This document shows positions 1 through 24,840 of a stretch of 27,894 nucleotides of DNA, piece by piece. The stretch comes from a virus. The position numbers and the translations under genes were made by a program. Position 1 is the stretch's first letter, and every line of letters starts with the position of its first letter. The notes beneath the pieces are model-generated. The model did no database searches. It had not been told where the DNA came from and worked only from the letters and a program-made list of their open reading frames with translations. Location: IMG/VR virus record IMGVR_UViG_3300044993_000755, positions 1 to 27,894 of that record. One strand, 5' to 3'.

Positions 1-870
1 CTGCTCTGACAGGTCGACGAACGCAGCGTCACGCTGCCAGCGCACGACGGGGGAATCGACGGCGCGAGCCTCGAGCAGCGTGCGCGGCAGGTACTTGCCG
101 CCGCTCTGGCGGGGAACGCAATCGAGCTCCTCGAGCGCCGCGTCGCCATACTGGTCGCGAATGTCCCGTGCCCACTCGAGCTCTCCCCGCTCGGTCCACA
201 CGATGCCTCGCTTGAGGCACACGCGCCGGTACAGCCCATCGGCGAGCGCATCTTCGAACGTCACCCGCTGCAGGTTGTAAGGCTTCTTGCCGGCGCGGAT
301 CTCCTCGCACAGTTGGTTGAACGGGTTGTCGACCCCGTCGTGCGTCGAGATGATGAGCACCCGACCGCCCCAGATCAGCAGGGCGAGAGCTGCCTTCAGG
401 AGCTCGCTCAGCTCATCGTGAAACGCAGCCTCGTCGATGATGACGTAGCCCTGCCGGCCGCGGAGTGAACGCGGGCGCGAGCAGAGCGCTACGATCTCGA
501 AGCCGCTTGCGAAGTTGATCCGGAAAGCCTGGATCTCGCGGTCGGCTCCCTTGTCGCCCTGTTCGATGAACAGGAACTCACTCACCTCGGCCGCGACGTG
601 CAGGAACTCGCGCGCCCACATGGCGCAGGTATCGATGAACTCCCGCGTCATGTCGCGGTTGTAGCCGATGTAGAAGACGTCTTGCCCGCCTGCCGCTCGG
701 TCTGCGCCCGCCGTCAGGACGGCGTCGGCACCGATGCCCCACGTTGCACCGATGCGCCGCGACTTCTCGCACACGACGACCTGATGCTTGCTCGTCGCAT
801 CGAGCAAGCGCTGCTGATAGCCGAGCAGAACCGTTTCGCCGTCGGCGATCTGCGGCAGCTGCTCAGCCAT
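1..870 (-). CDS. Phage terminase large subunit (Mu gp28-like), 3' part cut by window edge
   Basis: This is the ATPase/nuclease motor that packages DNA into proheads. Reading from the ATG at 870 to the left edge gives 290 open codons with no stop, so the C-terminal part, with the expected nuclease domain, lies outside. The visible part is the ATPase domain: a Walker A-like CEKSRRIGATW at residues 34-44, a Walker B YVIIDEAAF at 142-150, and a coupling-type STHDG at 175-179. The SRRIG form is typical of Mu gp28-type terminases. The gene overlaps the end of the upstream hydrolase gene by 8 nt, so the two are translationally coupled, and it is last in the leftward operon within the window. A portal gene would be expected next. 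The family call is firm; the full length is unknown. Confidence 0.93.
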   Translation of the reverse strand, partial: MAEQLPQIADGETVLLGYQQRLLDATSKHQVVVCEKSRRIGATWGIGADAVLTAGADRAAGGQDVFYIGYNRDMTREFIDTCAMWAREFLHVAAEVSEFLFIEQGDKGADREIQAFRINFASGFEIVALCSRPRSLRGRQGYVIIDEAAFHDELSELLKAALALLIWGGRVLIISTHDGVDNPFNQLCEEIRAGKKPYNLQRVTFEDALADGLYRRVCLKRGIVWTERGELEWARDIRDQYGDAALEELDCVPRQSGGKYLPRTLLEARAVDSPVVRWQRDAAFVDLSEQ

Positions 871-1525
871 CGATCCACCCTTCGAGCTCGTCGAGTCGCT
901 CGCCGGTTGGGGCGTCGGCAGGTGCGAGCTCGTCGTTCGTCCGGGCGAAGTGCAACGCCTCGGGAAGCGAGATGATCGAGCGCACGATCTTGCCGTTCTG
1001 CAGGTGAAGCTCGCCACCCGACCACCACGCTCGACGCGATCGCCGTGCGGCCTCGATGTGTTGGCGTCCGTTCGCCCACGCGCTGGCCACCATCGGGCCT
1101 TGGCCGAGGTCCCACGTGCGCAGGGTGAGGTCATCCAAGTCGTTGACGACCATCACGTGCGCGTCGCTCGAGTCGGGTCGCGCCCAAGAGATGATGATGT
1201 CTCCGGTGAGGAGAGCTTCGCCGGGGTGAGGTCGGCGAGCCACGGGGCAGGAGCCGAGCGGGCGCGCGCACAAGCGGGCGACGTTGACGACGGGGCGCCA
1301 ACCGTTGTGCTCGGTGCGGTTGATGAACGCGCACCGCACGCCGAGACGGTACAAGAGCCAGTGCCCCAGGTCGGCGCAGCTCGAGTAGGTCGGGCCCTTG
1401 TCGCGCCCCTCGGTGATCCAGCGGTAGACCGGATCGTTGGCAAGGCGACCCCCGACGCCCCGCGTCGCGAACTCGCACCATGCTTTGGCCGCGTCTCGAT
1501 AGAACTGCTCGGAGGTCGTGATCAT
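863..1525 (-). CDS. Putative NlpC/P60- or CHAP-like cysteine hydrolase (candidate endolysin)
   Basis: A 220-aa protein lying between the small and large terminase genes. Two segments resemble papain-fold cell-wall hydrolases: a Cys at residue 50 at the start of a helix (SSCADLGHWLLYRLG), and a TGDIIISW strand followed by His123 in DAHVMVVND. This is the Cys...GD...His order seen in NlpC/P60 and CHAP amidases/peptidases. I infer peptidoglycan hydrolysis, either lysis or DNA entry; no other lysin is visible in the window. The ATG at 1525 is preferred because GAGG lies 6 nt upstream. A GTG at 1537, overlapping the stop of the small terminase gene, is the alternative. It could also be an unrelated conserved phage protein, since no family-defining motif beyond this pattern is clear. 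Confidence 0.55.
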   Translation of the reverse strand: MITTSEQFYRDAAKAWCEFATRGVGGRLANDPVYRWITEGRDKGPTYSSCADLGHWLLYRLGVRCAFINRTEHNGWRPVVNVARLCARPLGSCPVARRPHPGEALLTGDIIISWARPDSSDAHVMVVNDLDDLTLRTWDLGQGPMVASAWANGRQHIEAARRSRRAWWSGGELHLQNGKIVRSIISLPEALHFARTNDELAPADAPTGERLDELEGWIDG

Positions 1526-1533
1526 GGGTGGCC

Positions 1534-2073
1534 TCACGCTGCGCGCTGCGCGATCCCGAGGATGCGCGCGCGAATTGCCTCGACAGTTCCCTCGCTGAGC
1601 CCCTGCTCGGTGGCCACCTGCGCCGCCGCGTCGGCGGCGTCCCGAGCGGTGCGCTCACGGATCCGGATCTCGACGTCGACATTCGACTTCCGTGCGGACT
1701 CGAGATCTTTGCACGCTCGCGCCAAGCGCCCGAAGTCCTCGAGGTCGATGCCATCGGCGTCGCTGCCGAGTTGCATCCGTGCGCGCAGAAGCAGCGCCTG
1801 CAAGGACTCGATGGCGAGTCGCCCCGCGTCGCCTGGCACTTGCTCGAGCTCACGCCCCAGCGCCTCGGCCATCTGCCGCGACAGACGAATGTCCTCAGCG
1901 ATGCGCTCGAAGTCTTGGCTGTACCGATGCACCGCCGACTTGCTGACGTCGGCGCCCAGCTTGCGCAGGTGATCGGTGACCTCCCGAATACCGAGGCGGC
2001 CATCGGACAGCAGGCGGTCGAGCTCGGCTCGGAGCTCCTGCGGCAGCTGTCGGACCTTGCTGCGCGGCGGCAT
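1534..2073 (-). CDS. Terminase small subunit (Mu gp27-like, DUF3486)
   Basis: A 179-aa protein of the DUF3486 family, found in Mu-like phages directly before the large terminase and thought to recognise phage DNA for packaging. The N-terminus PPRSKVRQLPQELRAELDRL is typical, followed by a helix-turn-helix-like stretch around residues 30-55 (GIREVTDHLRKLG..VSKSAVHRY). A helical, charged region around residues 100-160 contains IDLEDFGRLARACKDLE. The ATG at 2073 has GAGGAG 5-6 nt upstream and lies just beyond the stop of the gp26-like gene. Order and spacing match Mu gp26-gp27-gp28, except for the hydrolase inserted before the large subunit. Confidence 0.88.
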   Translation of the reverse strand: MPPRSKVRQLPQELRAELDRLLSDGRLGIREVTDHLRKLGADVSKSAVHRYSQDFERIAEDIRLSRQMAEALGRELEQVPGDAGRLAIESLQALLLRARMQLGSDADGIDLEDFGRLARACKDLESARKSNVDVEIRIRERTARDAADAAAQVATEQGLSEGTVEAIRARILGIAQRAA

Positions 2074-2074
2074 G

Positions 2075-2374
2075 TCAGCTCCTCGGGGTCGGGCGCTTCA
2101 CGCCCGGGTGACGAGCTCGCCCGGCGGCCACGTCACAGCCGCGCTCGGTCAGCGTGGCCACGGTGACAGATCCGGCGACGAGCTGGGAGGTGAGCAGCGC
2201 TTGCTCGGTGAGCCATGCCACATCACCGCGCACGGTGTCGCGGGAGACGTGGTGCCCGAGACTGTTCAGTGCCGTATGCAGCACCGAGTCGTTGGTGCTG
2301 TAGCCCGGCAGGCTCTCAAGCACCCGCAGCAGGGCAAGGCGACGGTCCTCGGCTAGGTGTTCGGTGAAGCTCAT
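2075..2374 (-). CDS. Mu gp26-like winged-helix phage protein
   Basis: A 99-aa protein matching the small phage proteins found between DUF2730 and DUF3486 in Mu-like phages, often annotated as ArsR-like or VpaChn25_0724 family. Recognisable blocks are SFTEHLAEDRRLALLRVLE, PGYSTNDSVLHTAL, VSRDTVRGDVAWLTEQ and the C-terminal VATLTERGCDVAAGRA. The pattern is that of a winged helix with the recognition helix around residues 43-58, so DNA binding is plausible, but the role in Mu is not established. The ATG at 2374 overlaps the DUF2730 stop by one base (TGATG) and has AAGGTGA upstream. It belongs to the packaging operon that starts at the late-type element at 2725-2743. Confidence 0.8.
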   Translation of the reverse strand: MSFTEHLAEDRRLALLRVLESLPGYSTNDSVLHTALNSLGHHVSRDTVRGDVAWLTEQALLTSQLVAGSVTVATLTERGCDVAAGRARHPGVKRPTPRS

Positions 2375-2691
2375 CAGGTCACCTTGTGCAGGTAGTCCTC
2401 GATCCGACTGAGTCGGACGAGGGCGGCAGCTTGCCCGGACTCGACGCCTGAGAACTTCGCCCCGAGCTCACGCACGGCGCCCGTCAGCTCCGCCACCTCG
2501 CGGGCCGTCGGCAGGTGCCGCACGCGTTCAGCCAAAACGCCGTGCTCGCGGCGTAGCTCGCCGACCTCTCGCTCGAGGTGCTCGACGTGCTCACGGGTCG
2601 CCCGGTGGCGCGCCTGTTGCCATGTGTAGGCGCCAACCATGGCCCACAGCACGAGCTGCAACACCTTCAGCGCGAGGTCCCAATCGGTCAC
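2374..2691 (-). CDS. DUF2730 family membrane-anchored coiled-coil protein (Mu gp25-like)
   Basis: A 105-aa protein with one N-terminal hydrophobic segment (about residues 8-24, LKVLQLVLWAMVGAYTW) followed by a highly charged heptad-like helix (about 33-60, HVEHLEREVGELRREHGVL) and a second helical region to the end. This is the architecture of DUF2730 proteins found next to gp26/gp27 in Mu-like phages; the function is unknown. The start is GTG at 2691; the purine-rich GGGGA touches it, which is too close for a normal Shine-Dalgarno, but no better in-frame start exists. It is the first gene after a 51-nt gap behind the Mor-like gene, and the gap holds one copy of the shared 19-bp late-type element. 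Confidence 0.78.
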   Translation of the reverse strand: MTDWDLALKVLQLVLWAMVGAYTWQQARHRATREHVEHLEREVGELRREHGVLAERVRHLPTAREVAELTGAVRELGAKFSGVESGQAAALVRLSRIEDYLHKVT

Positions 2692-2724
2692 TCCCCGTGC
2701 GTGCCACAGGGAGGGCCGCGCGAG

Positions 2725-2743
2725 CTGGACGGATGTGTTCCGC
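2725..2743 (-). promoter_or_regulatory. Late-type element, copy 1 (upstream of packaging operon)
   Basis: Read on the minus strand this is GCGGAACACATCCGTCCAG, identical over 19 bases to the copy at 11986-12004. It contains the inverted repeat CGGA-ACACA-TCCG (2730-2742). Its first base is the last base of the Mor-like stop codon, and its end is 33 nt from the GTG of the DUF2730 gene. It sits in the only gap of this part of the operon. I infer an activator-binding site or promoter element for the gp25-gp26-gp27-terminase unit; no convincing -10 box is seen. Confidence 0.7.
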
Positions 2744-3138
2744 TAGAAGTCTAAGAACGGCAAGCGCATCTGTCGGGCGTCGGCACGGCTTCGCTCGCGA
2801 CCCAACACGCTCCGAACATAGCGCTGGGTCGTTCGGGTGCGAAGCGCGATCTCACGATGGGCGACACCCTGATTTGCCAGGTCGATGATCTCGGCCTTCC
2901 GTAGGCGCATGAAGGCCCCTCGCGGGATGTCCACTCGCTCGCCGCCGTAGGCGCGGCAGATCTGTGCCCAGTGAGCGAAGCCGATGAGGCGGCAGATCTC
3001 ATGGTCCTCGCGCGGCGTCTTCGGGATGTGCACTCGTTCAAGGCCCCCGTATTTCTCGACGATCTGGAGAACGGCCTCGGGGGATGTGATCTCGGCCCAT
3101 CGCCTCAGAACCTCTGGCCAGGTTTCGAGGTCCGTCAC
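2743..3138 (-). CDS. Mor/C-family transcription activator
   Basis: A 131-aa protein with the Mor domain pattern: ITSPEAVLQIVEKYGGLERVHIPK (about residues 17-40), a central IGFAHWAQICRAYGGERVDIPRG, then a helix-turn-helix (about 82-112, KAEIIDLANQGVAHREIALRTRTT). In Mu, Mor activates the middle promoter and its relative C the late promoters; both act as dimers on dyad sites. Only one such protein is visible here, so it may do both jobs. The GTG at 3138 overlaps the gemA stop (GTGA). The C-terminus ends QMRLPFLDF; QMRLPF resembles the hexapeptide beta-clamp motif. Right behind the stop lies copy 1 of the dyad element, a likely target. Confidence 0.85.
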   Translation of the reverse strand: MTDLETWPEVLRRWAEITSPEAVLQIVEKYGGLERVHIPKTPREDHEICRLIGFAHWAQICRAYGGERVDIPRGAFMRLRKAEIIDLANQGVAHREIALRTRTTQRYVRSVLGRERSRADARQMRLPFLDF

Positions 3139-3545
3139 GCCGATCCTCCTCGGGCACGCCACGTCTTGAGGTTCTCGATGACGGTGTTTGCCTGCTCGGG
3201 GGTCAGCCATTCTGGATCGCTCACCCCCGTGAGTCGTTTGCAGAACGCGCGGAGCGCTGCGCGAGTAGGGGTGCGCACGAGACCTTTCCGTTTACACAGG
3301 TCCCCCCACAGTGCCCAAATTTTGCGCGCCTGCGGATTGTCGCTTGGGCGCTGCGCTGCTTGGTTCTTCGGCTTCCACCCCAGTCGCTTGAAGTGGTCGA
3401 CAACTTTCCCGAGTTGACGATCGTCAAGGTCGCGCGCGGAGCTCGCGCCCGCGACCTGCTCGAGCACCGCGCGGTAGGTGTCCTCGCTGAGGGCGAGGTC
3501 CTTCCGTGCGCAGTGCACCAGAGCGAGCAGGCCGCGGCGGTTCAT
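3135..3545 (-). CDS. gemA: GemA/gp16 family regulatory protein (DUF1018)
   Basis: A 136-aa member of the Mu GemA/gp16 family. Diagnostic blocks are LLALVHCARKDLALSEDTYRAVLEQVAG (residues 6-33), the DLDDRQLGKVVDHFKRLGWKP linker, and the C-terminal half with RKIWALWGDL, RTPTRAALRAFCKRLTGV and WLTPEQANTVIENLKTW. In Mu, GemA modulates host gene expression and DNA supercoiling; the biochemical role is still unclear. The ATG at 3545 overlaps the stop of the 71-aa gene (ATGA), and the gene runs directly into the Mor-like gene. The gemA-mor order is the same as in Mu. Confidence 0.92.
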   Translation of the reverse strand: MNRRGLLALVHCARKDLALSEDTYRAVLEQVAGASSARDLDDRQLGKVVDHFKRLGWKPKNQAAQRPSDNPQARKIWALWGDLCKRKGLVRTPTRAALRAFCKRLTGVSDPEWLTPEQANTVIENLKTWRARGGSA

Positions 3546-3757
3546 CGGGTGCTCCGTTCTTGCCAGTGTTTGAGGTTTGCGCGCGCTTCGCGGAGCTGAC
3601 GTTCCAGATCTTCGATCATCTCGCCAACCGTCACGCAGGTGCAGCAATCCCGTGCGGCGCGCCCTATGCATATTGGGAACCTCGGGCTGCACCCCGAGAG
3701 AGGCTTGCGCAGCAGCTTCGGGTCGCGCATCGGTCGCTTGGTGCGATCGCGGGCCAT
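3542..3757 (-). CDS. Small basic protein with cysteines, unknown
   Basis: A 71-aa protein I do not recognise. It is very basic at the N-terminus (MARDRTKRPMRDPKLLRKPL), has a cysteine cluster at mid-length (CSPRFPICIGRAARDCCTC), and ends in a predicted amphipathic helix (VGEMIEDLERQLREARANLKHWQ). The cysteines could bind a metal. It overlaps the upstream stop by one base and overlaps gemA by four bases, so it is embedded in the early operon. The coupling and the conserved-looking helix argue that it is a real gene; the function is unknown. Confidence 0.6.
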   Translation of the reverse strand: MARDRTKRPMRDPKLLRKPLSGCSPRFPICIGRAARDCCTCVTVGEMIEDLERQLREARANLKHWQERSTR

Positions 3758-4038
3758 CAGGCGCCCTCCTTCGGAACTCCGCGCATCTCGCTCCGACGCA
3801 GGAACGTCTCGATGATGGTTGCGAGGCGCCTCAGGTTCGGCCCGGGGACGAGCTCACCATCCACGATCTCAAGCTCCTTGGTGATGCGATCAAGCGGGAG
3901 TCCAACCTCCTTCTCGAGTGCCAGCAACGCCATGCTCGTGTCGAAAAAGAATCTCGTGCGCTGCAGCTCGGTCACCCGCGCGCAGAGCGAGAAGGCATCA
4001 ATCGCCTCTTGCGAGAGAAACACGATGCGGTTCGTCAT
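3757..4038 (-). CDS. Hypothetical early phage protein (93 aa)
   Basis: A 93-aa protein of unknown function. It begins MTNRIVFLSQEAIDAFSLCARVTELQ and has an overall helical character, with TRFFFDTSMALLALEKEVG in the middle and a C-terminal LRRLATIIETFLRRSEMRG helix. No cysteine motif, signal peptide or membrane segment is apparent. The ATG at 4038 overlaps the stop of the two-segment membrane protein (ATGA), consistent with translational coupling in the early operon. I cannot assign a family. Confidence 0.65.
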   Translation of the reverse strand: MTNRIVFLSQEAIDAFSLCARVTELQRTRFFFDTSMALLALEKEVGLPLDRITKELEIVDGELVPGPNLRRLATIIETFLRRSEMRGVPKEGA

Positions 4039-4253
4039 TGCCTCGCCCTCCGCTTGCGCTCCTTGACTCGGTCGAGCACGTAGGCGACCAGTATCACCAG
4101 CCACGCTGCGCCGATGGCGTACCCGAATAGGACGGCCTCGCCGATCTCGAACCTCTGCGGCGGCTTCGCTGTCGCCATGGCGATGGCCGCCACAGTGCCG
4201 GTCGCCAGAGCGATCCCGGCGTAGGCGTACAGCCCAACGGTCAACCAATGCAT
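4035..4253 (-). CDS. Small two-span membrane protein (possible holin)
   Basis: A 72-aa protein with two clear hydrophobic segments, about residues 3-27 (LTVGLYAYAGIALATGTVAAI) and 42-61 (AVLFGYAIGAAWLVILVAYVL), and a strongly basic tail (RVKERKRRARQ). Size, two spans and a positive C-terminus fit class II holins, but many small phage membrane proteins look the same, and it sits among early genes rather than beside the candidate endolysin. The ATG at 4253 gives a 13-nt overlap with the upstream gene; longer in-frame versions would add an Arg-rich leader and are unlikely. Confidence 0.6.
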   Translation of the reverse strand: MHWLTVGLYAYAGIALATGTVAAIAMATAKPPQRFEIGEAVLFGYAIGAAWLVILVAYVLDRVKERKRRARQ

Positions 4254-4573
4254 GTCTCGTCCTCCTCCTCGTCGTCGCTCGCCTCGTCCTGCCCGTAGAA
4301 GATTCGCTCGTGCAACTCTTCCCACTCGCCGGGCCAGAGAGCCTCACCGAGGCCGTCGGTGATCTCGCAGTCACCCGTCAGGTCGTGCTCGACGTCGATG
4401 GCTTCGCAGAGCGCGGCGGCTGCCTCGTCGCGTGCGCCGGTTCCTGCGAGCGCGATGGCGCGCTCGCAGAGCTCGAGCACCCGCTTGTACTCGGTGGCGT
4501 AGTGCTCAGCCCAGTAGCACAGGGCCTGCTGCACGGACTTGCGCAGCTCCGTCACCATTGCGTCGGTTGTCAT
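4241..4573 (-). CDS. Acidic hypothetical protein (110 aa)
   Basis: A 110-aa protein with an unusually acidic C-terminus (QDEASDDEEEDETCIG). The N-terminal half is helical (VTELRKSVQQALCYWAEHYATEYKRVLELCERAIALA) and the middle contains EAIDVEHDLTGDCEITDG and a Trp-rich WPGEWEELHERIFYG. Highly acidic small early phage proteins are sometimes DNA mimics, but nothing more specific supports that here. The ATG at 4573 overlaps the stop of the preceding zinc-knuckle gene (ATGA). Confidence 0.6.
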   Translation of the reverse strand: MTTDAMVTELRKSVQQALCYWAEHYATEYKRVLELCERAIALAGTGARDEAAAALCEAIDVEHDLTGDCEITDGLGEALWPGEWEELHERIFYGQDEASDDEEEDETCIG

Positions 4574-4941
4574 GGTGCCTCCGACGGTGAGGGCATCGGT
4601 TCGGGCAGGTCGATTCCGGCGAGCGGGTCGCGCCCGCCGTGCTCGAGCACCGCCCGACGAAACAGGTCGGCGCGCTCTCGCGCCTCACCGGCCTCACCGT
4701 GCCGCTGCTCCTTCGAAGCGACGACCGCGATCGCCGCGTGCATCACCGCGAGGTAGCGGGCAGAGGGGCGCTTGTCCCTTTCCTGCCCGGGTCGGTACTC
4801 GGCCCACACGCAGATCTGCAGGCGTCGAGGCACCATGCGCCAGTGCGACCGGCACATGAGCAGGCGCGGCGGAACCTCGACGGAGCACCCGACTGCATGG
4901 CAGCGGTGCGCCGGCACGAAGGGCCTCGGTGCGCCAGCCAT
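4570..4941 (-). CDS. Zinc-knuckle phage protein of unknown function
   Basis: A 123-aa protein with the pattern HRCHAVGC...LLMCRSHW, giving C14-x4-C19-x10-C30-x2-H33, which should bind zinc. It is followed by a signature MVPRRLQICVWAEYRPGQE-KRPS-YLAVMHAAIAVV. Proteins with this C...C...CxxHW...MVP...W..YRPGQ layout recur in many unrelated phages, but to my knowledge have no assigned function. The ATG at 4941 is chosen over a GTG at 4944 because it forms the ATGA overlap seen throughout this operon. The C-terminus is rich in Pro, Ser and Glu and probably disordered. Confidence 0.72.
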   Translation of the reverse strand: MAGAPRPFVPAHRCHAVGCSVEVPPRLLMCRSHWRMVPRRLQICVWAEYRPGQERDKRPSARYLAVMHAAIAVVASKEQRHGEAGEARERADLFRRAVLEHGGRDPLAGIDLPEPMPSPSEAP

Positions 4942-5267
4942 CACGCGCCCTCCGCGACAAGTGCCTCGGACTCGATCTGTCGCTCGATGGCGAGCCGCAA
5001 GCGGTCGCCGGTTCGGAGCTCATCGCGCAAGCGAGCGAGCTCCTCGTCGAGGTTGCCCCCGAGCTGCCCCACGATCCGGTAGCAGTGGGCCGCCACGATC
5101 GTCGCGTGGCGGATCACCTCGTCGGCGTCCCCGCTGTGCGCCTTCTCGAGCGCGCCCCATGCCTGCGCGGAGATGGTCTCAGCGAGCGAGACGATGGTGC
5201 GGCGCTTCTCCGCGTCGGGCTGCAGCTCGTCGGCGAGTCGCTCGAACTCCTCATGGTTCGTGGTCAT
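4941..5267 (-). CDS. Hypothetical helical protein (108 aa)
   Basis: A 108-aa, almost fully helical, charged protein (EEFERLADELQPDAEKRRTIVSLAE near the N-terminus; EELARLRDELRTGDRLRLAIERQIE near the C-terminus) with coiled-coil potential in the last 35 residues. No catalytic or metal-binding motif is visible and I do not recognise a family. The ATG at 5267 overlaps the stop of the 114-aa gene by four bases. The neighbours are small early-operon genes, so an accessory role in replication or host takeover is possible but unproven. Confidence 0.6.
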   Translation of the reverse strand: MTTNHEEFERLADELQPDAEKRRTIVSLAETISAQAWGALEKAHSGDADEVIRHATIVAAHCYRIVGQLGGNLDEELARLRDELRTGDRLRLAIERQIESEALVAEGA

Positions 5268-5608
5268 GCCCGCACCTGCTTTCCCTGCGCGCGGGCGGCG
5301 AGCACGAGGGCGGTGCCGGCGATGGCCTCGACGGCGCACCAGCGGATCTCTCGGATGCGGCCCGAGAGGATCTGACGGCAGAGCGCGGTCGCGAGAGGCA
5401 GATCGATGGTCGTCTCGTCGACCTGCTCCGCCGTGACCTCGGAGCTGGCGAGCTCGGCCGTCTCCAGTGCCTGAGCGTACCGGCGCAGGAAGTGCGCGAC
5501 GACGTGGCGGTTGATGGTGCCTTCCTCGATGAGGTAGGCGCATTCAAGGAGCCCTTTCCGGACTCGCGCAGTGGGCGAGATCCGGGGCTGGTTCACGCGG
5601 GTGCTCAT
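5264..5608 (-). CDS. Hypothetical early phage protein (114 aa)
   Basis: A 114-aa protein of unknown function. It has a basic N-terminal stretch (TRVNQPRISPTARVRKGLLE), a helical middle (VVAHFLRRYAQALETAELAS) and a C-terminal hydrophobic helix AVEAIAGTALVLAARAQGKQVRA that is too short and polar to be a confident membrane span. The ATG at 5608 overlaps the stop of the zinc-ribbon gene (ATGA). It is part of the uninterrupted early operon. Confidence 0.6.
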   Translation of the reverse strand: MSTRVNQPRISPTARVRKGLLECAYLIEEGTINRHVVAHFLRRYAQALETAELASSEVTAEQVDETTIDLPLATALCRQILSGRIREIRWCAVEAIAGTALVLAARAQGKQVRA

Positions 5609-6027
5609 GACCGACCCTCCTGGCACTCGCGCTCGAGCTCGAGCTGCAGGGCGAAGAGGTCGCGAGCGATCGCGTGGGCACGATGGTGCCGGCCGGAGTC
5701 GATGCACCTGCCGTACCGCGCGCGGTGGCCGTATGCCTTGTGGACGTGGTGCGCGATCCCGAGGGGCTGCCACGGATCCGGGTGCGTGGCCGCGCCCTGC
5801 TCGAGCACCTGCCGCACCTCCTCGAGGGCAGACGTCACGCCGACACGCGCCCACGTCTCGGGGTGGCGGTTCATGATGACGTCGACGATCCGGTCGAGCT
5901 CCGCCTGCAGGGCGGTGGCCTCCGCCTGGATGCACCAGATGCAGCGCCCGTCCAGTGTGGAGAGGCACTCTCGGTGGCAGGCCGGGCAGGTGATCGAGAG
6001 CTCTGACGTTTCGCGTGGCTTGCTCAT
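5605..6027 (-). CDS. Zinc-ribbon hypothetical protein (140 aa)
   Basis: A 140-aa protein with an N-terminal zinc ribbon, CPAC at residues 14-17 and CIWC at 29-32. A helix rich in Glu/Ala/Asp follows (AEATALQAELDRIVDVI), then a His- and Arg-rich segment (PLGIAHHVHKAYGHRARYGRCIDSGRHHRA) and a final helix (LFALQLELEREC). The zinc ribbon suggests nucleic-acid or protein binding. The ATG at 6027 forms an ATGA overlap with the DUF3164 stop; a longer version from 6075 would lie inside DUF3164 and is rejected. Family not recognised. Confidence 0.65.
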   Translation of the reverse strand: MSKPRETSELSITCPACHRECLSTLDGRCIWCIQAEATALQAELDRIVDVIMNRHPETWARVGVTSALEEVRQVLEQGAATHPDPWQPLGIAHHVHKAYGHRARYGRCIDSGRHHRAHAIARDLFALQLELERECQEGRS

Positions 6028-6653
6028 GACGCCACCTCCTCGACGCTCGCGAGGTCCAAGCTGATGGCCTGCCATTGTTCGGAGTCACCAACCCGCTCGT
6101 AGAAGCGGAGATAGCTCTTGGAGCTCGACACCTGAACGGAGTCGGAGATGGCGCGCATGGCGCGGAGCCATGTCGCATCGTCGATGTTCAGGCGGCGCAG
6201 TCCAAGCACGCGCTCGGTCGACACCTTGCCCTGCTTGTCGACTTGGAAGGCGTGCTCGACCAGCGCCCGGATCTTGTCGTCGCTGCCAGCCGACCACTCG
6301 CGAATGCACTCGTCGATGAGCCGCTTCGCAGCCTGCAGCCTCTCGTCGAACACCAGGTGATCGGCGATCTGCCGCGTCACCTTGAAGCGCCCATCGTACG
6401 AGAGGAGCGTGAGGTTACCCTTGCCGCCACCGACGGTGACGCCGTACTGCTCGGCGCTCAAGTCGACGAACGCCTGCAGGTCCCGGGCGGCCTCGGCTTT
6501 GAAGGCGGCGAGCAGCTTGGACAAGGCGACCGCCTTGCCGATGAGCTCGCGCACGAGGGAGTCGCGCGCCAGGTCGATGTCCTTCACCAGCTTGCGGGGC
6601 ACGAGGCGCCCCTGCGCGTCGACCATGTGGTCGACGATCGTCTCGTCAGTCAT
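6024..6653 (-). CDS. DUF3164 family protein
   Basis: A 209-aa protein of the DUF3164 family, a regular component of the early region of Mu-like phages downstream of the transposition genes. Typical blocks are MVDAQGRLVPRKLVKDIDLARDSLV near the N-terminus, the central YGVTVGGGKGNLTLLSYDGRFKV, and IRALVEHAFQVDKQGKVSTERVLGLRRL followed by W..AM.AISDSVQV...K.Y.RFYER. The biochemical role is unknown; its position suggests support of early DNA replication or protection. The ATG at 6653 overlaps the upstream stop (ATGA). An upstream extension to 6821 is an out-of-frame shadow of the neighbouring gene. Confidence 0.9.
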   Translation of the reverse strand: MTDETIVDHMVDAQGRLVPRKLVKDIDLARDSLVRELIGKAVALSKLLAAFKAEAARDLQAFVDLSAEQYGVTVGGGKGNLTLLSYDGRFKVTRQIADHLVFDERLQAAKRLIDECIREWSAGSDDKIRALVEHAFQVDKQGKVSTERVLGLRRLNIDDATWLRAMRAISDSVQVSSSKSYLRFYERVGDSEQWQAISLDLASVEEVAS

Positions 6654-6985
6654 CGGGAACCTCCAAAGAGGGAAGCTTGTCGGGGGTCGGTTTCGACCGG
6701 TCGCACCGAGGCGCGCCGCACGGGCGCGCTCGGGACCAGGTCGCTCAGGGGTGGAAGGTGGATGCCCTCGCGTGTGGCGATGGCGCGGAGCGCTTCGAGG
6801 TCGGCCCGCTCGAGGCGCCACGAACCGATGGCGCCCACGCCCTGGCCGCTGATGAGGCTCATCTCGTGAAGGGCCCCCATGCCGTAGCGGACGTGCACGG
6901 TGCGGCGCTCCTCGTCGAGTCGCATTGCGGCGACCTGCGTCTCGGCGCGGCTGACCGAATGCCGGATGGTCACCTTACGAAGCAC
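6650..6985 (-). CDS. Hypothetical protein with C-terminal beta-clamp-like motif
   Basis: A 111-aa protein I cannot place in a family. The first half looks like a small beta-rich domain (VTIRHSVSRAETQVAAMRLD, TVHVRYGMGALHEMSLI); the second has a helix (RADLEALRAIATREGIHL) and a Pro/Arg/Val-rich linker. It ends PRQASLFGGSR: QASLF at residues 103-107 matches the pentapeptide beta sliding-clamp-binding consensus, and a flexible tail is where such motifs usually lie. I infer contact with the host replisome. The GTG at 6985 has GGAGG 6 nt upstream and overlaps the preceding gene by 11 nt. Confidence 0.65.
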   Translation of the reverse strand: MLRKVTIRHSVSRAETQVAAMRLDEERRTVHVRYGMGALHEMSLISGQGVGAIGSWRLERADLEALRAIATREGIHLPPLSDLVPSAPVRRASVRPVETDPRQASLFGGSR

Positions 6986-7298
6986 GGCCCACCTCCTCGA
7001 TCTCGCAGGGGTAGCCGTCGACCGTGAGGGTGTGCGTCACAGGCTCGGGCCGCGCTGCGTCGCGATGCTTCCGGATGGCGGCCTGGATCCGGTCGATCCG
7101 AACGCGGAAGATCTTGACGAGCCGCTTGCTCCCCAGTCCGCCCAGGCTCAGGCGGTACCAGAGGGGCTCGAGCTTGGCCGGGTCGCTGCCGCTGAGTAGC
7201 TCAGGTAGCGACACCCCGTGCTCGATGGCGACGGTTTCGGCGATGGTGACGGCGCCCGCTTGGTACAGCGCGTGACGGATCTCGTTTGCTGGCGCCAT
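6975..7298 (-). CDS. Small protein with DnaA C-terminal-like helix-turn-helix
   Basis: A 107-aa protein. Residues about 19-80 (IAETVAIEHGVSLPELLSG ... LGSKRLVKIFRVRIDRIQAAIRKHRD) follow the layout of the DnaA domain IV DNA-binding fold: a helix with V(A)..HGVS..ELL, a middle helix, and a last helix resembling the 'R.(T)..A.(R)K' end of that domain. There is no AAA+ part. It lies between B and the clamp-motif protein, so binding to phage DNA or competing for DnaA-type sites is conceivable. The match is by eye and the TrpR/DnaA-like fold is only suggested. The ATG at 7298 lies immediately behind the B stop codon. Confidence 0.6.
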   Translation of the reverse strand: MAPANEIRHALYQAGAVTIAETVAIEHGVSLPELLSGSDPAKLEPLWYRLSLGGLGSKRLVKIFRVRIDRIQAAIRKHRDAARPEPVTHTLTVDGYPCEIEEVGRAS

Positions 7299-7299
7299 G

Positions 7300-8259
7300 T
7301 CAGACCTCCACCCCGAGGTTGTCGATGGCTGCGCCGATTGCCTCCGCGTCGACCGCGGCCTCGGCCGCGCTCTTGGCCAGTCGGCAGATCTTGACGACCA
7401 TGCGCAGCCCGCCTGGCCGGCGCGCGACGCGCTCGAGGAGGTCGTGAGCGGCGCGTTCCTCGACGCCGTAGCGCTGCGCCAGGATGCGCACGTCGGAGCG
7501 CTCGGGGCGGTCGAGCCAGAGGCGCATGCCGACCCGCGAGAAGAGCTGCGCGAAGTGGCTCGCCCGCGAGGGGCCCGTCAGTCGGGCATAGACCGTCTCG
7601 TTGCCGACGAGGGCGACACCGACGGGCAGCTCGGCTTCGAGGCACCAGTCGTGCAGGGAGCGGATCTCCTCGATGGCTGCCTGACTGAGGTGTTGAGCCT
7701 CGTCGATGATCAGGAGGCCCCCGCGGCCGGCGACCTTGCTGCGGATAGAACGGTTCAGTGCGCGCGCCCCGCCGGTGGCCTGAGCGTCGACGGCCTCAGC
7801 GATCTCCTCGAGCGCAGGCACCGGGGTCGAGCAGCTCGGCGACATGGTGGCCGCCCATACGTGGCGGTACCGGGCCCGATAGTGCGCGATGGTGCGGGTC
7901 TTTCCGGTGCCGGGGCCGCCGTAGATGGCGACGATCTCACCCTCCGCTTGGGCGTACCCGAGCGTGGCCATGATCCGGCGCGCGCTCTTGGTTTCGGCGA
8001 AGGGTTCGGTCGTGCCAGAGCGCCCGCCGACCTCTCGGAGCCACGCGAGCACGGCCTGCTCGAGCCCCGCAGCGTCCTTTACGTTCTCGCCGTCGAGCCA
8101 GCGCCCGAGCACCGGGTGCGCCACGTCGAGGCGCTTGGCGAGCTGGCGAAGGGTGAGATCCTCCCGCTCCTTGGCAGCATTGGCTCGCTGCCTCAGGTCC
8201 TTGTGAAGGGGCACGACGGTGCCGCTTTGCTCGGTTGCTGCGTTGGGTGTATCAGACAT
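7300..8259 (-). CDS. B: AAA+ ATPase, Mu B-like transposition protein
   Basis: A 319-aa AAA+ ATPase equivalent to Mu B, which binds target DNA, stimulates transposase A and directs insertion away from the phage's own DNA. An N-terminal helix-turn-helix (about residues 35-58, LTLRQLAKRLDVAHPVLGRWLDGE) precedes the ATPase: Walker A GGPGTGKT at 114-121, Walker B LLIIDEAQH at 182-190, then SLHDWC...VGVALVGNE (sensor 1 region) and a sensor 2 type region near RRPGGLRMVVK. Length and order fit the family. The ATG at 8259 has AAGGAG about 8 nt upstream. It follows A after an 84-nt gap in which I see no clear promoter. Confidence 0.93.
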   Translation of the reverse strand: MSDTPNAATEQSGTVVPLHKDLRQRANAAKEREDLTLRQLAKRLDVAHPVLGRWLDGENVKDAAGLEQAVLAWLREVGGRSGTTEPFAETKSARRIMATLGYAQAEGEIVAIYGGPGTGKTRTIAHYRARYRHVWAATMSPSCSTPVPALEEIAEAVDAQATGGARALNRSIRSKVAGRGGLLIIDEAQHLSQAAIEEIRSLHDWCLEAELPVGVALVGNETVYARLTGPSRASHFAQLFSRVGMRLWLDRPERSDVRILAQRYGVEERAAHDLLERVARRPGGLRMVVKICRLAKSAAEAAVDAEAIGAAIDNLGVEV

Positions 8260-8343
8260 AGCGGTTGGACTCCTTGCGGTGCTTTCGTTTCGGGTTCAGC
8301 CAGAGCGGGAGGCGCGCCAACGCCGCCCGCTCGCTTTGGGGGA

Positions 8344-10242
8344 TCATTCGCCGACGGCTGACCGTCGGGGGGTGAGCTTCGCCAGCGCGTTGCGGCCGAT
8401 GCGATCGATGAACTCGTCGTTCCGTTCGCGGCGGTCGCGCTCCTCGCGCGTCGGTGCCACGCGAGGCACCGCGGGTTCGATGCGTGCCACCTTCGACCGC
8501 GCCCGCTTCGGCGGGGCACCGAGTGCCGCTTCGAGGTGGAGCGCTTCGAGGTCGCTCGCGGTCATGCTGCGCTCGGCCTCGAGGACCTTCTTCTGGGCCT
8601 TCGCCCAGGCCGTCCGCTTGCGGGCGTGGTCGCGCGCTTGGCTACGGTCATCGAAGCCCGCAGCCTCGATGCACTCGGCGAAGCACACGAACTCGCCGCC
8701 AAGCCGGTAGACGTAGACGCCGCGCTTCGCGTTCTGCGGGTCGAACCGGAGCACGACGCGCTCGCCGCACAAGCCGACGAGCTTGTCGGCCCAGTAGCGA
8801 TTCCCGAGCAAGTGCACCTCGCCCGTCTGCTGCCGCACGCTCACCGCCTCCGCTGCGAGGAACAGGAGGCGCCGCTGCTCCTCGGTTATCCGGCGGATGG
8901 GCGCGCTCGCGTAGCTCGCCTCGAACGTCGCATCGAAGGACCGGCCGGCGCACACCTTGGCGCGTCGCTTCTCGCGAGCGTTGTGCTCGTTGATGCACAC
9001 CTGCACGAGCTGCACGAACGTGTCGAGCTCGACCGCGCGGGAGCCATAGTTGTGCGGCTTGTCCGTCGTGTCGCTGCCGGTGTAGGCACCCTCGCACGCG
9101 GGGTGCCGTGCGATGTCCTCGCAGAGGTCACGCCAGGCGCGCTCGATGGGCTTGGCCTGGCCGTGATAGGGCGTGGTCCAGTGCACCGACACGCCGAGCT
9201 GCAAGAGCACGCCCTTCGGATCGCCGGGCTGAGTCTTGAAGCGGAAGCGCCAGGCGCTCTGACCGGTGAGCCACTTGTTCGCGAAGCCGCGCCCGTTGTC
9301 GAGGTAGCACGCCTCGGGCACGCCGAAATGCTCGACGAGGTCGCCGAAGGCGAGGCGCACGAGGTCGCCGTGCTCCGTCTTGTCGAGACGCCAGCTCAGG
9401 ATCTTGCCCGAGTGGACGTCCTGAAAGCCGACGAGCACCGGGCGCGAAACCTCGCCATCGGGCCAGCGCACCATCACATCGAACCGGTGACCGTCGGCGT
9501 TCACGGCCTGCAGGGCGCGGAGGTGATCCTTGCTGCGCTCCTGCGCCGGGTAGAGTCGGGCGAGTACTTCGTCACCCTCGCGGGCCGCGACGATCGCCGC
9601 GTGGTCGACCTCCGCCTCGAGACGACGGCGCAAGGAGTGCAAGCTCGGGATGGGTGCCCACGCCTTCGCCTGCGCGATGGTGAGCAGTCGACGATAGCAA
9701 GCGGCGTAGGCCGGGCGCGCCGGGCGCAGGTAGTCGCTCTTGAAGTACTCCCACGCCTCGGGGTGGCACGCGGCAAAGGTCGCTCCACTGCGCCAGCTCG
9801 GGAGCAGCGCGGTCAATCGCTCTGACTCCGGCAGCTCGCGAGTTGCCAGGTACCAGCGTTGAACCGACCGCGCCGAGTGCTCGGTGTCCTCGGCCACGGT
9901 GGCGTACGCAACCGCTCGGGAGACGCCGTTGCGCACGAGCTCCTCGACGGCGCGCACGAGAGTGAGCCGCTCGCTGGCAATCTGCCGGAACGCCTCCGGC
10001 GCCTCCGCCAGCTCGGCGCCCTCGGTGGGCTCCGCCCCGCGTGCGGCAGCGATGCGAGCGAGAGCGGCCTGCGTCTTCCGTGGCAGGCTCGCCACCTCAT
10101 AGACGCGCGTGGTTCCGCCCCGCACCTGGCGCTCGGTGTAGCGCCACTCCTCGCGCTTCGCCTTCGCGAGCACCTTGCGCACCTTGCGCGGCACGCCGGG
10201 CAGCCCCATCGCCGCGAGCTCGCGAGCGGTGTAGCCGGTCAT
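8344..10242 (-). CDS. A: DDE transposase, Mu A-like
   Basis: The 632-aa transposase that binds the phage ends and catalyses strand transfer for integration and replicative transposition. N-terminal residues 4-54 (YTARELAAMGLPGVPRKVRKVL...YEVASLP) match the Mu DNA-binding winged helix. The catalytic triad is visible as D250 (VNADGH), D315 (YLDNGRG) and E367 (GQAKPIERAW), with spacings close to Mu A D269/D336/E392. A C-terminal beta-barrel region (about 480-540) and a basic, Arg-rich tail follow; the last helices would contact B and ClpX. The ATG at 10242 overlaps the upstream 100-aa gene (ATGA). All catalytic residues are present, so it is probably active. Confidence 0.96.
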   Translation of the reverse strand: MTGYTARELAAMGLPGVPRKVRKVLAKAKREEWRYTERQVRGGTTRVYEVASLPRKTQAALARIAAARGAEPTEGAELAEAPEAFRQIASERLTLVRAVEELVRNGVSRAVAYATVAEDTEHSARSVQRWYLATRELPESERLTALLPSWRSGATFAACHPEAWEYFKSDYLRPARPAYAACYRRLLTIAQAKAWAPIPSLHSLRRRLEAEVDHAAIVAAREGDEVLARLYPAQERSKDHLRALQAVNADGHRFDVMVRWPDGEVSRPVLVGFQDVHSGKILSWRLDKTEHGDLVRLAFGDLVEHFGVPEACYLDNGRGFANKWLTGQSAWRFRFKTQPGDPKGVLLQLGVSVHWTTPYHGQAKPIERAWRDLCEDIARHPACEGAYTGSDTTDKPHNYGSRAVELDTFVQLVQVCINEHNAREKRRAKVCAGRSFDATFEASYASAPIRRITEEQRRLLFLAAEAVSVRQQTGEVHLLGNRYWADKLVGLCGERVVLRFDPQNAKRGVYVYRLGGEFVCFAECIEAAGFDDRSQARDHARKRTAWAKAQKKVLEAERSMTASDLEALHLEAALGAPPKRARSKVARIEPAVPRVAPTREERDRRERNDEFIDRIGRNALAKLTPRRSAVGE

Positions 10243-10541
10243 TGGCTCACCTTGAGGGCCGCTTCCTTGAGCCTGTTGAGGAACGCCTCGACGTTGGGAT
10301 TCATCCGCACTCGAAGGACCAACTCAGATCGATTGCCCTTCTGAATGCGCTCGACGGAGGCGACTGGATCCCAGCTCTTGGCAGGAAACTCGGAAAGTGT
10401 CCGGACCAGCGCCCGAGTGCCTGCCCTTTTCCAGGAGTCGGCTACGAGGTCGGTCGCCGCCTCGCAGACCAAGTGAATGGCCTCGGAAACGTCGGTGCTC
10501 GAGGCTGGGAGCGTCAGCTCAACAAAGGTCGGGCTACCCAC
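10239..10541 (-). CDS. Hypothetical protein between ner and transposase (100 aa)
   Basis: A 100-aa protein of unknown function (SPTFVELTLPASSTDVSEAIHLV...). It has alternating strands and helices: a long helix AIHLVCEAATDLVADSWKRAG, then WDPVASVERIQKGNRSELVLRVRMNPNVEAFLNRLKEAALKVSQ. The GTG at 10541 has AAGGGGG about 5 nt upstream and overlaps the ner stop by 8 nt; its own stop overlaps the transposase ATG (ATGA). This tight coupling makes it a real gene. A longer frame starting at 10808 is a shadow of ner. It could influence transposition or its control; no family recognised. Confidence 0.72.
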   Translation of the reverse strand: MGSPTFVELTLPASSTDVSEAIHLVCEAATDLVADSWKRAGTRALVRTLSEFPAKSWDPVASVERIQKGNRSELVLRVRMNPNVEAFLNRLKEAALKVSQ

Positions 10542-10803
10542 GTCGGCCCCCTTTGCGGATGGGGTTGCCGTGTGCGTCGTAGCGATCGGGCCAGATCTTG
10601 TGCGGAGGCACCCCCAGGAAGCTCGCGATGATGCGCTCGCACCGAAGGCTCGGGCGCTTGAGGGCGAAGTAGAGGGCGGGCCGGCTGACCCCATTGTCAT
10701 CGGCGAGCCGGGCCATGCTGCTGCCGCGCATCCGTACAGCGGCCTTGATCTGTTCAGGGTGCCAACCTGGCTCGATGCAACTAGTCTCGCTTGGCAATGA
10801 CAC
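10534..10803 (-). CDS. ner: Ner-like DNA-binding regulator
   Basis: An 89-aa protein of the Ner/Nlp helix-turn-helix family. The core WHPEQIKAAVRMRGSSMARLADDNGVSRPALYFALKRPSLRCERIIASFLGVPPHKIWPDRY (residues about 14-74) has the diagnostic WH..I...R..G.S...L....G.S...L..AL....P..E..IA..L......IWP.RY pattern. In Mu, Ner is made first from the early promoter and represses both early transcription and the repressor promoter. The start is uncertain: GTG 10803 gives 89 aa and would be nearly leaderless from the predicted promoter, while TTG 10797 has GAGG 5-6 nt upstream. It is divergent from the repressor. Confidence 0.88.
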   Translation of the reverse strand: MSLPSETSCIEPGWHPEQIKAAVRMRGSSMARLADDNGVSRPALYFALKRPSLRCERIIASFLGVPPHKIWPDRYDAHGNPIRKGGRRG

Positions 10804-10809
10804 CTCATG

Positions 10810-10839
10810 AACTTAATCCCGGCACCTGCCGGTGGTCAA
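10810..10839 (-). promoter_or_regulatory. Predicted early promoter for ner-A-B operon
   Basis: On the minus strand TTGACC (10839-10834, 5 of 6 to the -35 consensus) is followed after 17 nt by TTAAGT (10816-10811), or after 18 nt by TAAGTT. The -10 match is weak, but spacing and position in the 53-bp ner/repressor gap fit an early promoter. Transcription would begin near 10804, almost at the ner start codon. The dyad at 10819-10832 lies in the spacer, so a bound regulator would block RNA polymerase. Confidence 0.5.
10819..10832. promoter_or_regulatory. Perfect dyad, probable repressor or Ner operator
   Basis: CCGGCA-CC-TGCCGG is a perfect 6+6 inverted repeat with a 2-bp centre, located between the -35 and -10 of the predicted early promoter. 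Two imperfect direct repeats flank it: ACTTAATCCCGG (10811-10822) and AACTAACCCCGG (10845-10856), 9 of 12 identical. Either could be operators for the divergent helix-turn-helix regulators. Which protein binds which element cannot be read from sequence. Confidence 0.5.
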
Positions 10840-10856
10840 GCGGAAACTAACCCCGG

Positions 10857-11363
10857 ATGGCCAAACGATCTCTGTTCGAGGGGCTCAGTCCCGAGCAGCG
10901 CGCGGCGCTTGCGGGTCGGATCCGCCTCATGGTCGAAGCGGTAGGGACGCAAACGGCTGCTGCCGAGGTGGCCGGCATCTCGCCCCGTCAACTCAGTGAC
11001 TACATTCAGGCGCAGGGCGCGCCGTCGTTCCTCCCGCTCATGCGCCTCGCGCTGCACACGGGATTTGACCTTAATTGGGTAGCCACAGGCGAGGGCGAGT
11101 CTCACCGCGCGCCTGAGGGGTGGCAGGCGCAGGCCGAGATCAAGGTGCTGCTCGCGCGACTGTCGCGGACGCTCGAGCCGGTGCTCGCGATCTACAGAGA
11201 AGCGGGGCTCAGTCTCTCCGAGGAGGATGGCGACGAAGTGATCGGGGGCCTGCTCGATGCGATCGAGGAAACAGAACTTCCCCCCGAGCTCTGGCCGCAC
11301 ACGACCGGTCTTATTCTCTACTGCCATCGGCAGGCGGTTCGCCTGCTCCGTGGCGTCGGCTGA
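10857..11363 (+). CDS. Helix-turn-helix phage repressor (immunity repressor candidate)
   Basis: A 168-aa protein with an N-terminal helix-turn-helix, residues about 32-80: QTAAAEVAGISPRQLSDYIQ, then PLMRLALHTGFDLNWVATGEG, a pattern common in CI-like and Mu-type repressors. The C-terminal half is helical and acidic (LLARLSRTLEPVLAIYREAG, GDEVIGGLLDAIEETELP) and has no S24/LexA peptidase motif, so RecA-dependent self-cleavage is not expected. It is divergent from ner, with only 53 bp between the start codons, the classic lysis/lysogeny switch position. No strong ribosome-binding site precedes the ATG; CGGA lies 12 nt upstream. Confidence 0.82.
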   Translation: MAKRSLFEGLSPEQRAALAGRIRLMVEAVGTQTAAAEVAGISPRQLSDYIQAQGAPSFLPLMRLALHTGFDLNWVATGEGESHRAPEGWQAQAEIKVLLARLSRTLEPVLAIYREAGLSLSEEDGDEVIGGLLDAIEETELPPELWPHTTGLILYCHRQAVRLLRGVG

Positions 11364-11374
11364 CCTTTCGCCGC

Positions 11375-11389
11375 TCAGCGCCCCGCTGA
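11375..11389 (+). terminator. Hairpin after repressor, possible terminator
   Basis: A perfect 6-bp stem (TCAGCG/CGCTGA, 3-nt loop) begins 11 nt after the repressor stop codon. It lacks a U-tract. The 3' arm can instead pair with 11398-11403, making two mutually exclusive hairpins. The position fits transcription termination, but the strength is doubtful. Confidence 0.35.
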
Positions 11390-11985: not shown

Positions 11986-12004
11986 GCGGAACACATCCGT
12001 CCAG
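11986..12004 (+). promoter_or_regulatory. Late-type element, copy 2 (upstream of protease/capsid operon)
   Basis: GCGGAACACATCCGTCCAG, identical over 19 bases to copy 1. It contains the dyad CGGA-ACACA-TCCG (11987-11999) and ends 36 nt before the protease ATG at 12041. Similarity to copy 3 continues downstream (GCG-GCGCC-GGC). The place corresponds to the C-activated promoter PI of phage Mu. No clear -10 box is visible. Confidence 0.72.
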
Positions 12005-12040
12005 TTTGCGAGCGCCCCGGCGCCCAGACTCGACCCCGAC

Positions 12041-13207
12041 ATGCCCCTCGGGATCGAGATCTTCAAGGCGGGACGCCACACGGACAGCCGCGGGCGGACC
12101 ATCGAGTTCACCCCGGCGATGCTCGCCGCCATCGCAGCGGCCTACAGCGTCGACCTGCACGAGGCGCCCATCGTCCTCGGGCACCCGAAGGACAACGCCC
12201 CCGCCTACGGCTGGGTCAAGGGCCTGGGCGCCAGCGAGGGCGGCGGCCTGCAGGCGGACGCCGACCAGCTCGATCCTGCCTTCACCGAGGCGGTGCGTGC
12301 CGGTCGCTACAAGAAGGTGAGCGCGTCCTTCTACCACCCGGACAGCGCCAGCAACCCGACGCCGGGACAGTATTACCTGCGTCACGTGGGGTTCCTGGGG
12401 GCGCAGCCTCCGGCCGTGAAGGGCCTGGCGCCCGTGTCCTTCGCCGATGACGGCGACGACGTGGTGACGATCGACTTCGCCGACGAGCTCGACGTTGCGC
12501 GCCTGCTGCGCTCGCTGCGGGAGTGGCTCATCGGGCAGTTCGGGCAAGAGGAGGCCGAGAAGGCTCTGCCCGGCTGGTACGTCGACCACCTGCAGGAGCA
12601 GGGTGCGGTCGACGTCGCGACGCAGCGCGAGGAGCAGCCCGCCTATTCCGAGCAGGATGGTGCAGCCAGCAATCAACCCGCCCCCGAGAGCGGCAAGGTA
12701 CTTGAAAAAGAGAAAGCCCCCGCAGTCGCGCCGACTGCAGCGGATCCCGCGGCTGCGGGGGCGAACATTTCGGCGACCGAGTTCGCCGAGCGTGAGCGAC
12801 GTCTCGCCGAGCGCGAAGTCGAGCTCGCGCGCCGAGAGCGCGAAGCGGGGCGCAAGGCGCACGGCGCGTTCCTCGACGGGCTCGTGCAGGCGGGCAAGCC
12901 CTTGCCGCTCGAGCGTGAGCGAGTGCTCGACCTGTGCGAGGTGCTCGAGCACGGCGACGGCGCCGTGAGCTTCGCCGAAGGCGAGAGCCCCATCGGCCTG
13001 TTCAAGAAGCTCCTCGAGAGCCTGCCAAAGCAGGTCGACTTCGTCGAGCGCTCCGCGACGACCGGAACCGACGACGAGCTCGACGCCGAAGCCATCGGCC
13101 GCGCCGCGCTCGAGTTCGTCGAGGAGCAGCGTTCCAGGGGGATCACCGTCACGGCGACCGACGCCGTGCGCCACGTCAAGACCACGAAGGGACTCCTCAC
13201 CACATGA
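12041..13207 (+). CDS. Prohead protease/scaffold protein (Mu gpI-like)
   Basis: A 388-aa protein that should cleave scaffold and capsid proteins during head assembly. The N-terminal part shows Mu I protease blocks: IEIFKAGRHTDSRGRTIEFT, EAPIVLGHPKDNAPAYGWVKGL (His48) and YKKVSASFY (Ser94/Ser96, candidate catalytic Ser). From about residue 240 a long charged coiled-coil helix follows (EFAERERRLAEREVELARRERE), typical of the scaffold portion, which in Mu is also made separately (gpZ) from an internal start. The ATG at 12041 has only a weak ribosome-binding site, but no alternative start occurs before an in-frame stop at 11966. The stop overlaps the next ATG. Confidence 0.88.
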   Translation: MPLGIEIFKAGRHTDSRGRTIEFTPAMLAAIAAAYSVDLHEAPIVLGHPKDNAPAYGWVKGLGASEGGGLQADADQLDPAFTEAVRAGRYKKVSASFYHPDSASNPTPGQYYLRHVGFLGAQPPAVKGLAPVSFADDGDDVVTIDFADELDVARLLRSLREWLIGQFGQEEAEKALPGWYVDHLQEQGAVDVATQREEQPAYSEQDGAASNQPAPESGKVLEKEKAPAVAPTAADPAAAGANISATEFAERERRLAEREVELARREREAGRKAHGAFLDGLVQAGKPLPLERERVLDLCEVLEHGDGAVSFAEGESPIGLFKKLLESLPKQVDFVERSATTGTDDELDAEAIGRAALEFVEEQRSRGITVTATDAVRHVKTTKGLLTT

Positions 13208-24422: not shown

Positions 24423-24441
24423 GCGGAACACCTCCGACCAG
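24423..24441 (+). promoter_or_regulatory. Late-type element, copy 3 (upstream of baseplate W operon)
   Basis: GCGGAACACCTCCGACCAG, 17 of 19 identical to copies 1 and 2, with the dyad arms CGGA/TCCG intact (24424-24436). It starts 4 nt after the stop of the 159-aa gene and ends 33 nt before the GTG of gene W, in the only sizeable gap of the tail gene cluster. The surrounding CCCGCG/CGCGGG (24420-24425, 24444-24449) can also pair. Confidence 0.65.
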
Positions 24442-24474
24442 CACGCGGGCGCCTTGGCAGGCTAGAGATACCAT

Positions 24475-24840
24475 GTGGCGGACCCGCAAGCGCAGCAGTG
24501 GCAAACGCGCCTCGGTGGCGCGCCCGGTGAGCGCGTCGAGGGCATCGAGGAGCTCGAGCAGAGCCTGCGAGTCATCCTCGAGTCGGAGGTCGGCTCCGTC
24601 CCGGGCCGTTCGTCGTTTGGGATCCGGCGCGAGCAGATCCTCGACGCTCCTCTCGATTACGTCCGGGCTCTGGCGAGTCGTGAAGTGGTTCGAGCGGTGC
24701 GCGAAAGCGATCCGCGGATTGAGGTGGTCGCCGTGATCCCGGTCGGCGGCACTGAGGACGGGCGCCTTCCCTGCGAGGTGCATTGGCAACCCGCGGGGCA
24801 GGCCCTCGCGGAACCCCGGGTCACGAGGGCGGCGCTATGA
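24475..24840 (+). CDS. W: Baseplate wedge protein W (gp25-like, Mu gp46 position)
   Basis: A 121-aa protein of the GPW/gp25 family, part of the baseplate wedge. The hallmark is a helix with EELEQSLRVILESEVGSVPGRSSFGI, where the conserved 'I...L.T..GE....P.FG' motif is recognisable, followed by ILDAPLDYVRALASREVVRAVRESDPRIEV. The start is GTG at 24475, the only start in frame after a stop at 24463; the ATG at 24473 is out of frame. The ribosome-binding site is weak (AGAG). It is the first gene after copy 3 of the late element, and its stop overlaps the J start. Confidence 0.9.
   Translation: MADPQAQQWQTRLGGAPGERVEGIEELEQSLRVILESEVGSVPGRSSFGIRREQILDAPLDYVRALASREVVRAVRESDPRIEVVAVIPVGGTEDGRLPCEVHWQPAGQALAEPRVTRAAL

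Follow-up and report, generated by a model that had tools for sequence, protein, structure and literature searches.

Control of the late genes in Mu-like phages is known mainly from coliphage Mu. In Mu, the promoters Plys, PI, PP and Pmom depend on the activator C (PMC4461284), and the dyad bound by Mor is centred at −43.5, in a promoter that lacks a −35 hexamer (PMC4287176). The Mu gene order starts from gemA, which overlaps mor by 4 nt; a middle operon, C and lys follow, and I and P open further late operons.

The window, by which we mean the whole stretch of 27,894 nucleotides that was analyzed (positions 1 to 27,894 of IMG/VR virus record IMGVR_UViG_3300044993_000755), comprises most of the genome of a Mu-like transposable phage. 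It encodes a MuA-type DDE transposase, MuB, GemA and Mor, and a Mu portal was seen in a near-identical contig (L005; 99–100% protein identity in the genes compared), which reaches further left than the window and takes in the portal and MuF-like genes. The right end of the window coincides with the end of the tail-fibre ORF, and the right end of the phage lies beyond the contig. The features used below are as follows.

2374..2691, minus strand: DUF2730-like gene, first after copy 1 of the element and head of the lysis/packaging operon (PHROG 736, E 8e-10)
2725..2743, minus strand: copy 1 of the 19-bp element, Plys position, upstream of the DUF2730-like gene
2743..3138, minus strand: predicted late activator gene of the Mor/C family (131 aa), starting at GTG and overlapping gemA by 4 nt
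3135..3545, minus strand: gemA (PF06252, E 3e-36), directly upstream of the activator gene, as in Mu
7300..8259, minus strand: MuB
8344..10242, minus strand: MuA
minus strand: small and large terminase genes
10534..10803: small HTH protein
10857..11363: c-type repressor
11986..12004, plus strand: copy 2, PI position, upstream of protease I
12025..12030, plus strand: predicted −10 box CAGACT of copy 2, dyad centre +32 to +37
12041..13207, plus strand: head maturation protease I, first gene after copy 2 (PHROG 976, E 3e-112)
from 13650, plus strand: major head protein
from 16367, plus strand: sheath-sized ORF, assigned from size and Mu gene order
from 18855, plus strand: tape-measure-sized ORF, assigned from size and Mu gene order
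24423..24441, plus strand: copy 3, near the PP position, upstream of the gp25-like baseplate gene
24463..24468, plus strand: predicted −10 box TAGAGA(T) of copy 3, dyad centre +33 to +38
24475..24840, plus strand: GPW/gp25-like baseplate wedge gene, first after copy 3 (PF04965, E 3e-7)
plus strand: tail-fibre-like ORF, assigned from size and Mu gene order

The Mu releasin gp25 belongs to the DUF2730 family, which one study found in transposable phages only (PMC9239132); the Pfam match of the gene at 2374..2691 to this family fell below the cut-off (E 0.0019). Across positions 1–12040 the early block, lysis and packaging genes lie on the minus strand and the genes from I to the tail fibre on the plus strand, with the head module divided by the repressor region. 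Between a Gp27-like gene and the large terminase gene, positions 863–1537 encode a 224-aa protein with no Pfam or PHROG match, whose position would suit a lysis or packaging function. In L005, the MuF-like head protein (9996–11279) has a PBECR2 nuclease-like domain at its C terminus (PF18810, E 9e-19). The final 2 kb beyond it (11280–13376) lack recognisable phage genes and could be of host origin, in which case the left end of the phage would be there.

By sequence, the gene at 2743–3138 is a Mor/C-family late activator. Its product matches the Pfam Mor family (PF08765) with 30.8 bits against a cut-off of 24.9 (E 3e-7) and PHROG 836, 'late transcriptional activator' (E 1e-22), and by profile comparison it reaches the Mu C chain 9l0x (E 5e-4) and the Mor chain 1rr7 (E 0.01). 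The predicted monomer structure (pLDDT 79, pTM 0.53) placed the Mu C chain sixth in a Foldseek search (E 1.4) that returned no match with E < 0.001. The stop codon TAG occupies 2745–2743, and base 2743 doubles as the first base of the 19-bp element GCGGAACACMTCCGNCCAG, exactly as the original prediction had described.

Each of the three copies of the element contains CGGA-N5-TCCG. Allowing up to three mismatches, these three are the only matches in the window, compared with a mean of 0.09 in shuffled sequence, and none of 100 shuffles held three. The distance from the start of the element to the next start codon is 52, 55 and 52 nt for copies 1, 2 and 3, respectively. As at the C-dependent promoters of Mu, the dyad lies upstream of a predicted promoter without a −35 box and at a fixed spacing from the −10 box (that of copy 1 being poor), and the copies precede the lys/packaging, I and P/baseplate operons, the third lying near P and not at it. 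A search for a consensus sigma70 promoter in 2500–3200 found none.

We searched more widely for the element. In an exact 19-mer scan of IMG/VR, the loci besides L005 showed no match to the activator or transposase of the window and look like chance matches. Scanning with a 15-base core returned 78 stretches, of which only L005 was of the window's kind, and the generic pattern GGAM-N3-5-KTCC separated poorly from its reversed control (42 vs 26). The sequences in the activator alignment (A1) diverged too much for contigs to be scanned with it.

A more distant relative was found as a prophage on contig C531 of a Polyangia bacterium MAG (G002), whose transposase is 54–55% and whose activator is 42% identical to that of the window. 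The 17-bp core CGGAACACNTCCGNCCA occurs exactly twice, without mismatch, in this 9.4-Mb assembly. One site lies 13 nt past the activator stop on the plus strand; the other lies upstream of I on the minus strand, where I starts at dyad centre +46. G002 yielded no third site. Sites and two-strand layout alike are conserved between the window and this prophage. The activator also had matches in other Myxococcota genomes (G041, G094 and G351), where the stretches examined contained no repeated element. From the Polyangia prophage one may guess that the host of the window phage is of myxobacterium type.

Other Mu-like phages carry dyads of their own in the same places. We compared the 160 nt 3' of the Mor/C gene with the stretch before I in 22 phages in which both could be placed, leaving out KS10, in which both segments are one region. 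Of the remaining 21 phages, 13 scored better than at least 97.4% of 462 mismatched pairs, where about 0.5 would be expected. Eight had no significant match, among them Mu and G402 (p 0.10); for Mu, part of the published lys/I promoter match was recovered (p 0.10). The shared segments are nearly all palindromes (RR1-B, RcapMu, G386, G397, G401, G403, G404, G405, G406 and G389), the sequence of which differs between lineages. They mostly start within about 20 nt of the activator stop, with YPCBV-1 (+60) and G389 (+74) further away. Inverted repeats with arms of at least 6 follow 17 of 36 Mor/C genes, compared with 138 of 985 other genes in the same phages. A third site before a baseplate-region gene was also present in G405, G406 and RR1-B.

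Some of these phages show further repeats. RR1-B has four copies of one perfect palindrome (L012, positions 11531, 18995, 26072 and 31109), the third of which precedes the tape-measure gene with an imperfect −10 register. A strong inverted repeat soon after the Mor/C stop was also seen in G400, G387, G388, G396 and G398 (L245, L246, L218, L244 and L230, respectively), which stood outside the paired test as their I genes were not located.

The dyads of these phages share a spacing to a −10-like motif. Five phages supplied a first set of 13 sites, 8 of which had an A at centre +33 together with a T at +37 (0.45 expected), whereas the next best of 58 offsets reached 3 sites; we note that this register was first spotted by eye on part of this smaller set. 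In a second set of 28 sites from 14 phages, which are not independent because the phages are related, A...T occurred at +33 to +35 in about 22 sites and at any other offset in at most 2. For the nine phages new to this set, 13 of 18 sites matched. The spacing agrees with the position of the dyad bound by Mor in Mu, −43.5 (PMC4287176). Against the register of the relatives, the CAGACT of copy 2 is exact, the TAGAGA of copy 3 is off by one base and the GCACGC of copy 1 is poor. The −10 boxes had been called weak or missing; copies 2 and 3 do have one, and only that of copy 1 is truly poor.

Start codons also fall at a preferred distance from the dyads. An ATG or GTG at centre +44 to +49 was found at 21 of the 28 sites (18% by chance), with an ATG peak at +45 to +48. 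The I start codons of the window, G002, G401 and G402 are supported by the homologous N-terminus of I (I/HIF.AGRH), which begins a few residues past the promoter-proximal ATG. A predicted transcription start some 44 nt from the dyad centre would leave a leader of 0–4 nt; these mRNAs may therefore be almost or entirely without one, and many late mRNAs may be leaderless. A Shine–Dalgarno-like sequence precedes 1 of 20 such starts, compared with 66 of 279 (24%) long ORFs, a difference that is suggestive only (p 0.055). The feature is confined to part of the group, since RcapMu, YPCBV-1 and the lys gene of RR1-B lack it, and the I and lys starts of Mu show an apparent ribosome-binding site. Leaderless translation from GTG, as copies 1 and 3 would require, would be less usual. 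In the papers that we searched, no leaderless late gene of a transposable phage was described.

We then counted the activator genes. The original prediction had noted a single visible family member, and we found one Mor/C gene each in the window and in L005; the latter covers the region left of position 1 through the portal and MuF-like genes and holds no second one. To the right of 27,894 we infer that there is none. Among public Mu-like records, several of which are fragments, two Mor/C genes occurred only in Mu and D108; the other records with a match had several matches within one reading frame. Of 24 IMG/VR relatives, 23 had a Mor/C match, with one convincing gene each and an additional weak match in two. 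The G002 assembly contained one Mor/C gene over the cut-off. The two-step cascade of Muvirus type, with two Mor/C genes and a middle operon between them, was found in none of the window contig, L005 and G002. A single Mor/C gene thus appears to be usual among the relatives examined. The proposed compression of the cascade to one activator is well supported by the single gene in the window, L005 and relatives, and it is not an unusual arrangement, because Mu itself has the C–Plys order and other Mu-like phages have one Mor/C gene.

We consider it likely, with a probability of roughly 0.85, that the 19-bp element serves the Mor/C activator of this phage as its dyad operator, from which it would fire the late promoters. 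The activator dimer would bind CGGA-N5-TCCG immediately 5' of the −35 region, recruiting the host RNA polymerase to promoters that have no −35 box and a weak −10 about 33–35 nt from the dyad centre. The early operon (gemA–mor) ends with the activator gene, and no middle operon precedes the lysis/packaging operon, so one protein would switch on all three operons: lysis/packaging on the minus strand from copy 1, head/tail on the plus strand from copy 2, and the baseplate/fibre genes on the plus strand from copy 3. The observation behind the original prediction is real, and its reading appears mostly correct, with partial support: the copies do precede late operons on both strands, in the same layout as in G002, and that all late units are fired directly by one activator is something we infer.

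An unseen C-type activator encoded to the right of 27,894 could bind the element instead, the visible gene then being a Mor-type middle activator. Mu and D108 do carry two genes, and the contig stops at the end of the tail-fibre ORF, so the right end is out of sight. However, there is no middle operon for a Mor to serve, the 9.4 Mb of G002 hold a single Mor/C gene with the same element after it, and the Mu-like records examined besides Mu and D108 (several being fragments) have one convincing gene, which makes this alternative improbable. We regard it as less probable again that the element is a site for the transposase or the operator of another regulator, such as the c-type repressor or the small HTH protein. 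Although the phage does encode these other DNA-binding proteins, the early promoter region has no copy and the copies stand only before late operons, and in distant phages with different dyads the place recurs directly 3' of Mor/C and before I.

We give the least credence to a transcription terminator or an inter-operon RNA structure. In RR1-B, RcapMu and others the dyad forms a hairpin followed by T residues and could terminate there, and in Mu a hairpin follows C. The stem in the window and G002, however, is 4–6 bp with no T-run, and we rejected an intrinsic terminator for the window, as none was found in 2500–3200. Nor would a terminator account for the fixed distances of the −10 box (+33 to +35) and the start codon (+44 to +49) from the dyad centre.

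A more general picture can be drawn, which we put forward tentatively, at somewhat less than even odds. In most transposable phages outside the Mu/D108 group, a single Mor/C protein would read a lineage-specific operator at the end of its own gene and before the I and baseplate genes; the late promoters would have a fixed geometry with the start codon at the transcription start, giving leaderless late structural mRNAs, and the Mor and C of Mu would be a derived duplication. The C–Plys/PI/PP arrangement is known from Mu; what is added here is the common geometry, the activator-specific dyads and the possible leaderless late mRNAs, which, should they prove real, would be unexpected for the structural genes of a phage. 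The sites yield a promoter grammar that can be tested (a dyad, a spacing of 33–35 nt, an A...T −10 box and a start codon that coincides with the predicted transcription start), and the activator/operator pairs from many phages make it possible to study changes in operator specificity and to ask whether one-step switching is the norm.

Compared with the C system of Mu, the window shares a Mor/C-family activator whose gene is followed by the Plys position, sites before I and the baseplate region, and a dyad followed by a promoter whose −10 and −35 elements depart from consensus (PMC4461284, PMC4287176). It differs in several respects. Mu encodes Mor and C separately, on either side of a middle operon, whereas the window shows neither a second gene nor a middle operon, and the late genes of Mu run in one direction whereas those of the window lie on both strands. 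The third site of the window precedes a gp46/gp25-like gene, while PP of Mu is named for gene P; the I and lys starts of Mu, judged from sequence, have a leader with a ribosome-binding site, unlike those predicted here; and the dyad sequences are unrelated. With Mor and its promoter Pm, the window shares the 4-nt overlap with gemA and the position of the dyad (that of Pm is centred at −43.5, with no −35 hexamer). Mor serves one middle promoter, whereas the presumed site of the window recurs before three late operons. RcapMu, RR1-B, KS10 and POA1180 resemble the window in having a single Mor/C gene, and RR1-B and RcapMu also in a palindrome common to the segments downstream of Mor/C and upstream of I; in this group the dyad sequences differ, and most have their operons in one direction. 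KS10 also has an inverted, split head module, comparable to that of the window and called unique in 2008 (PMC2628397), and the Polyangia prophage has the same layout as the window.
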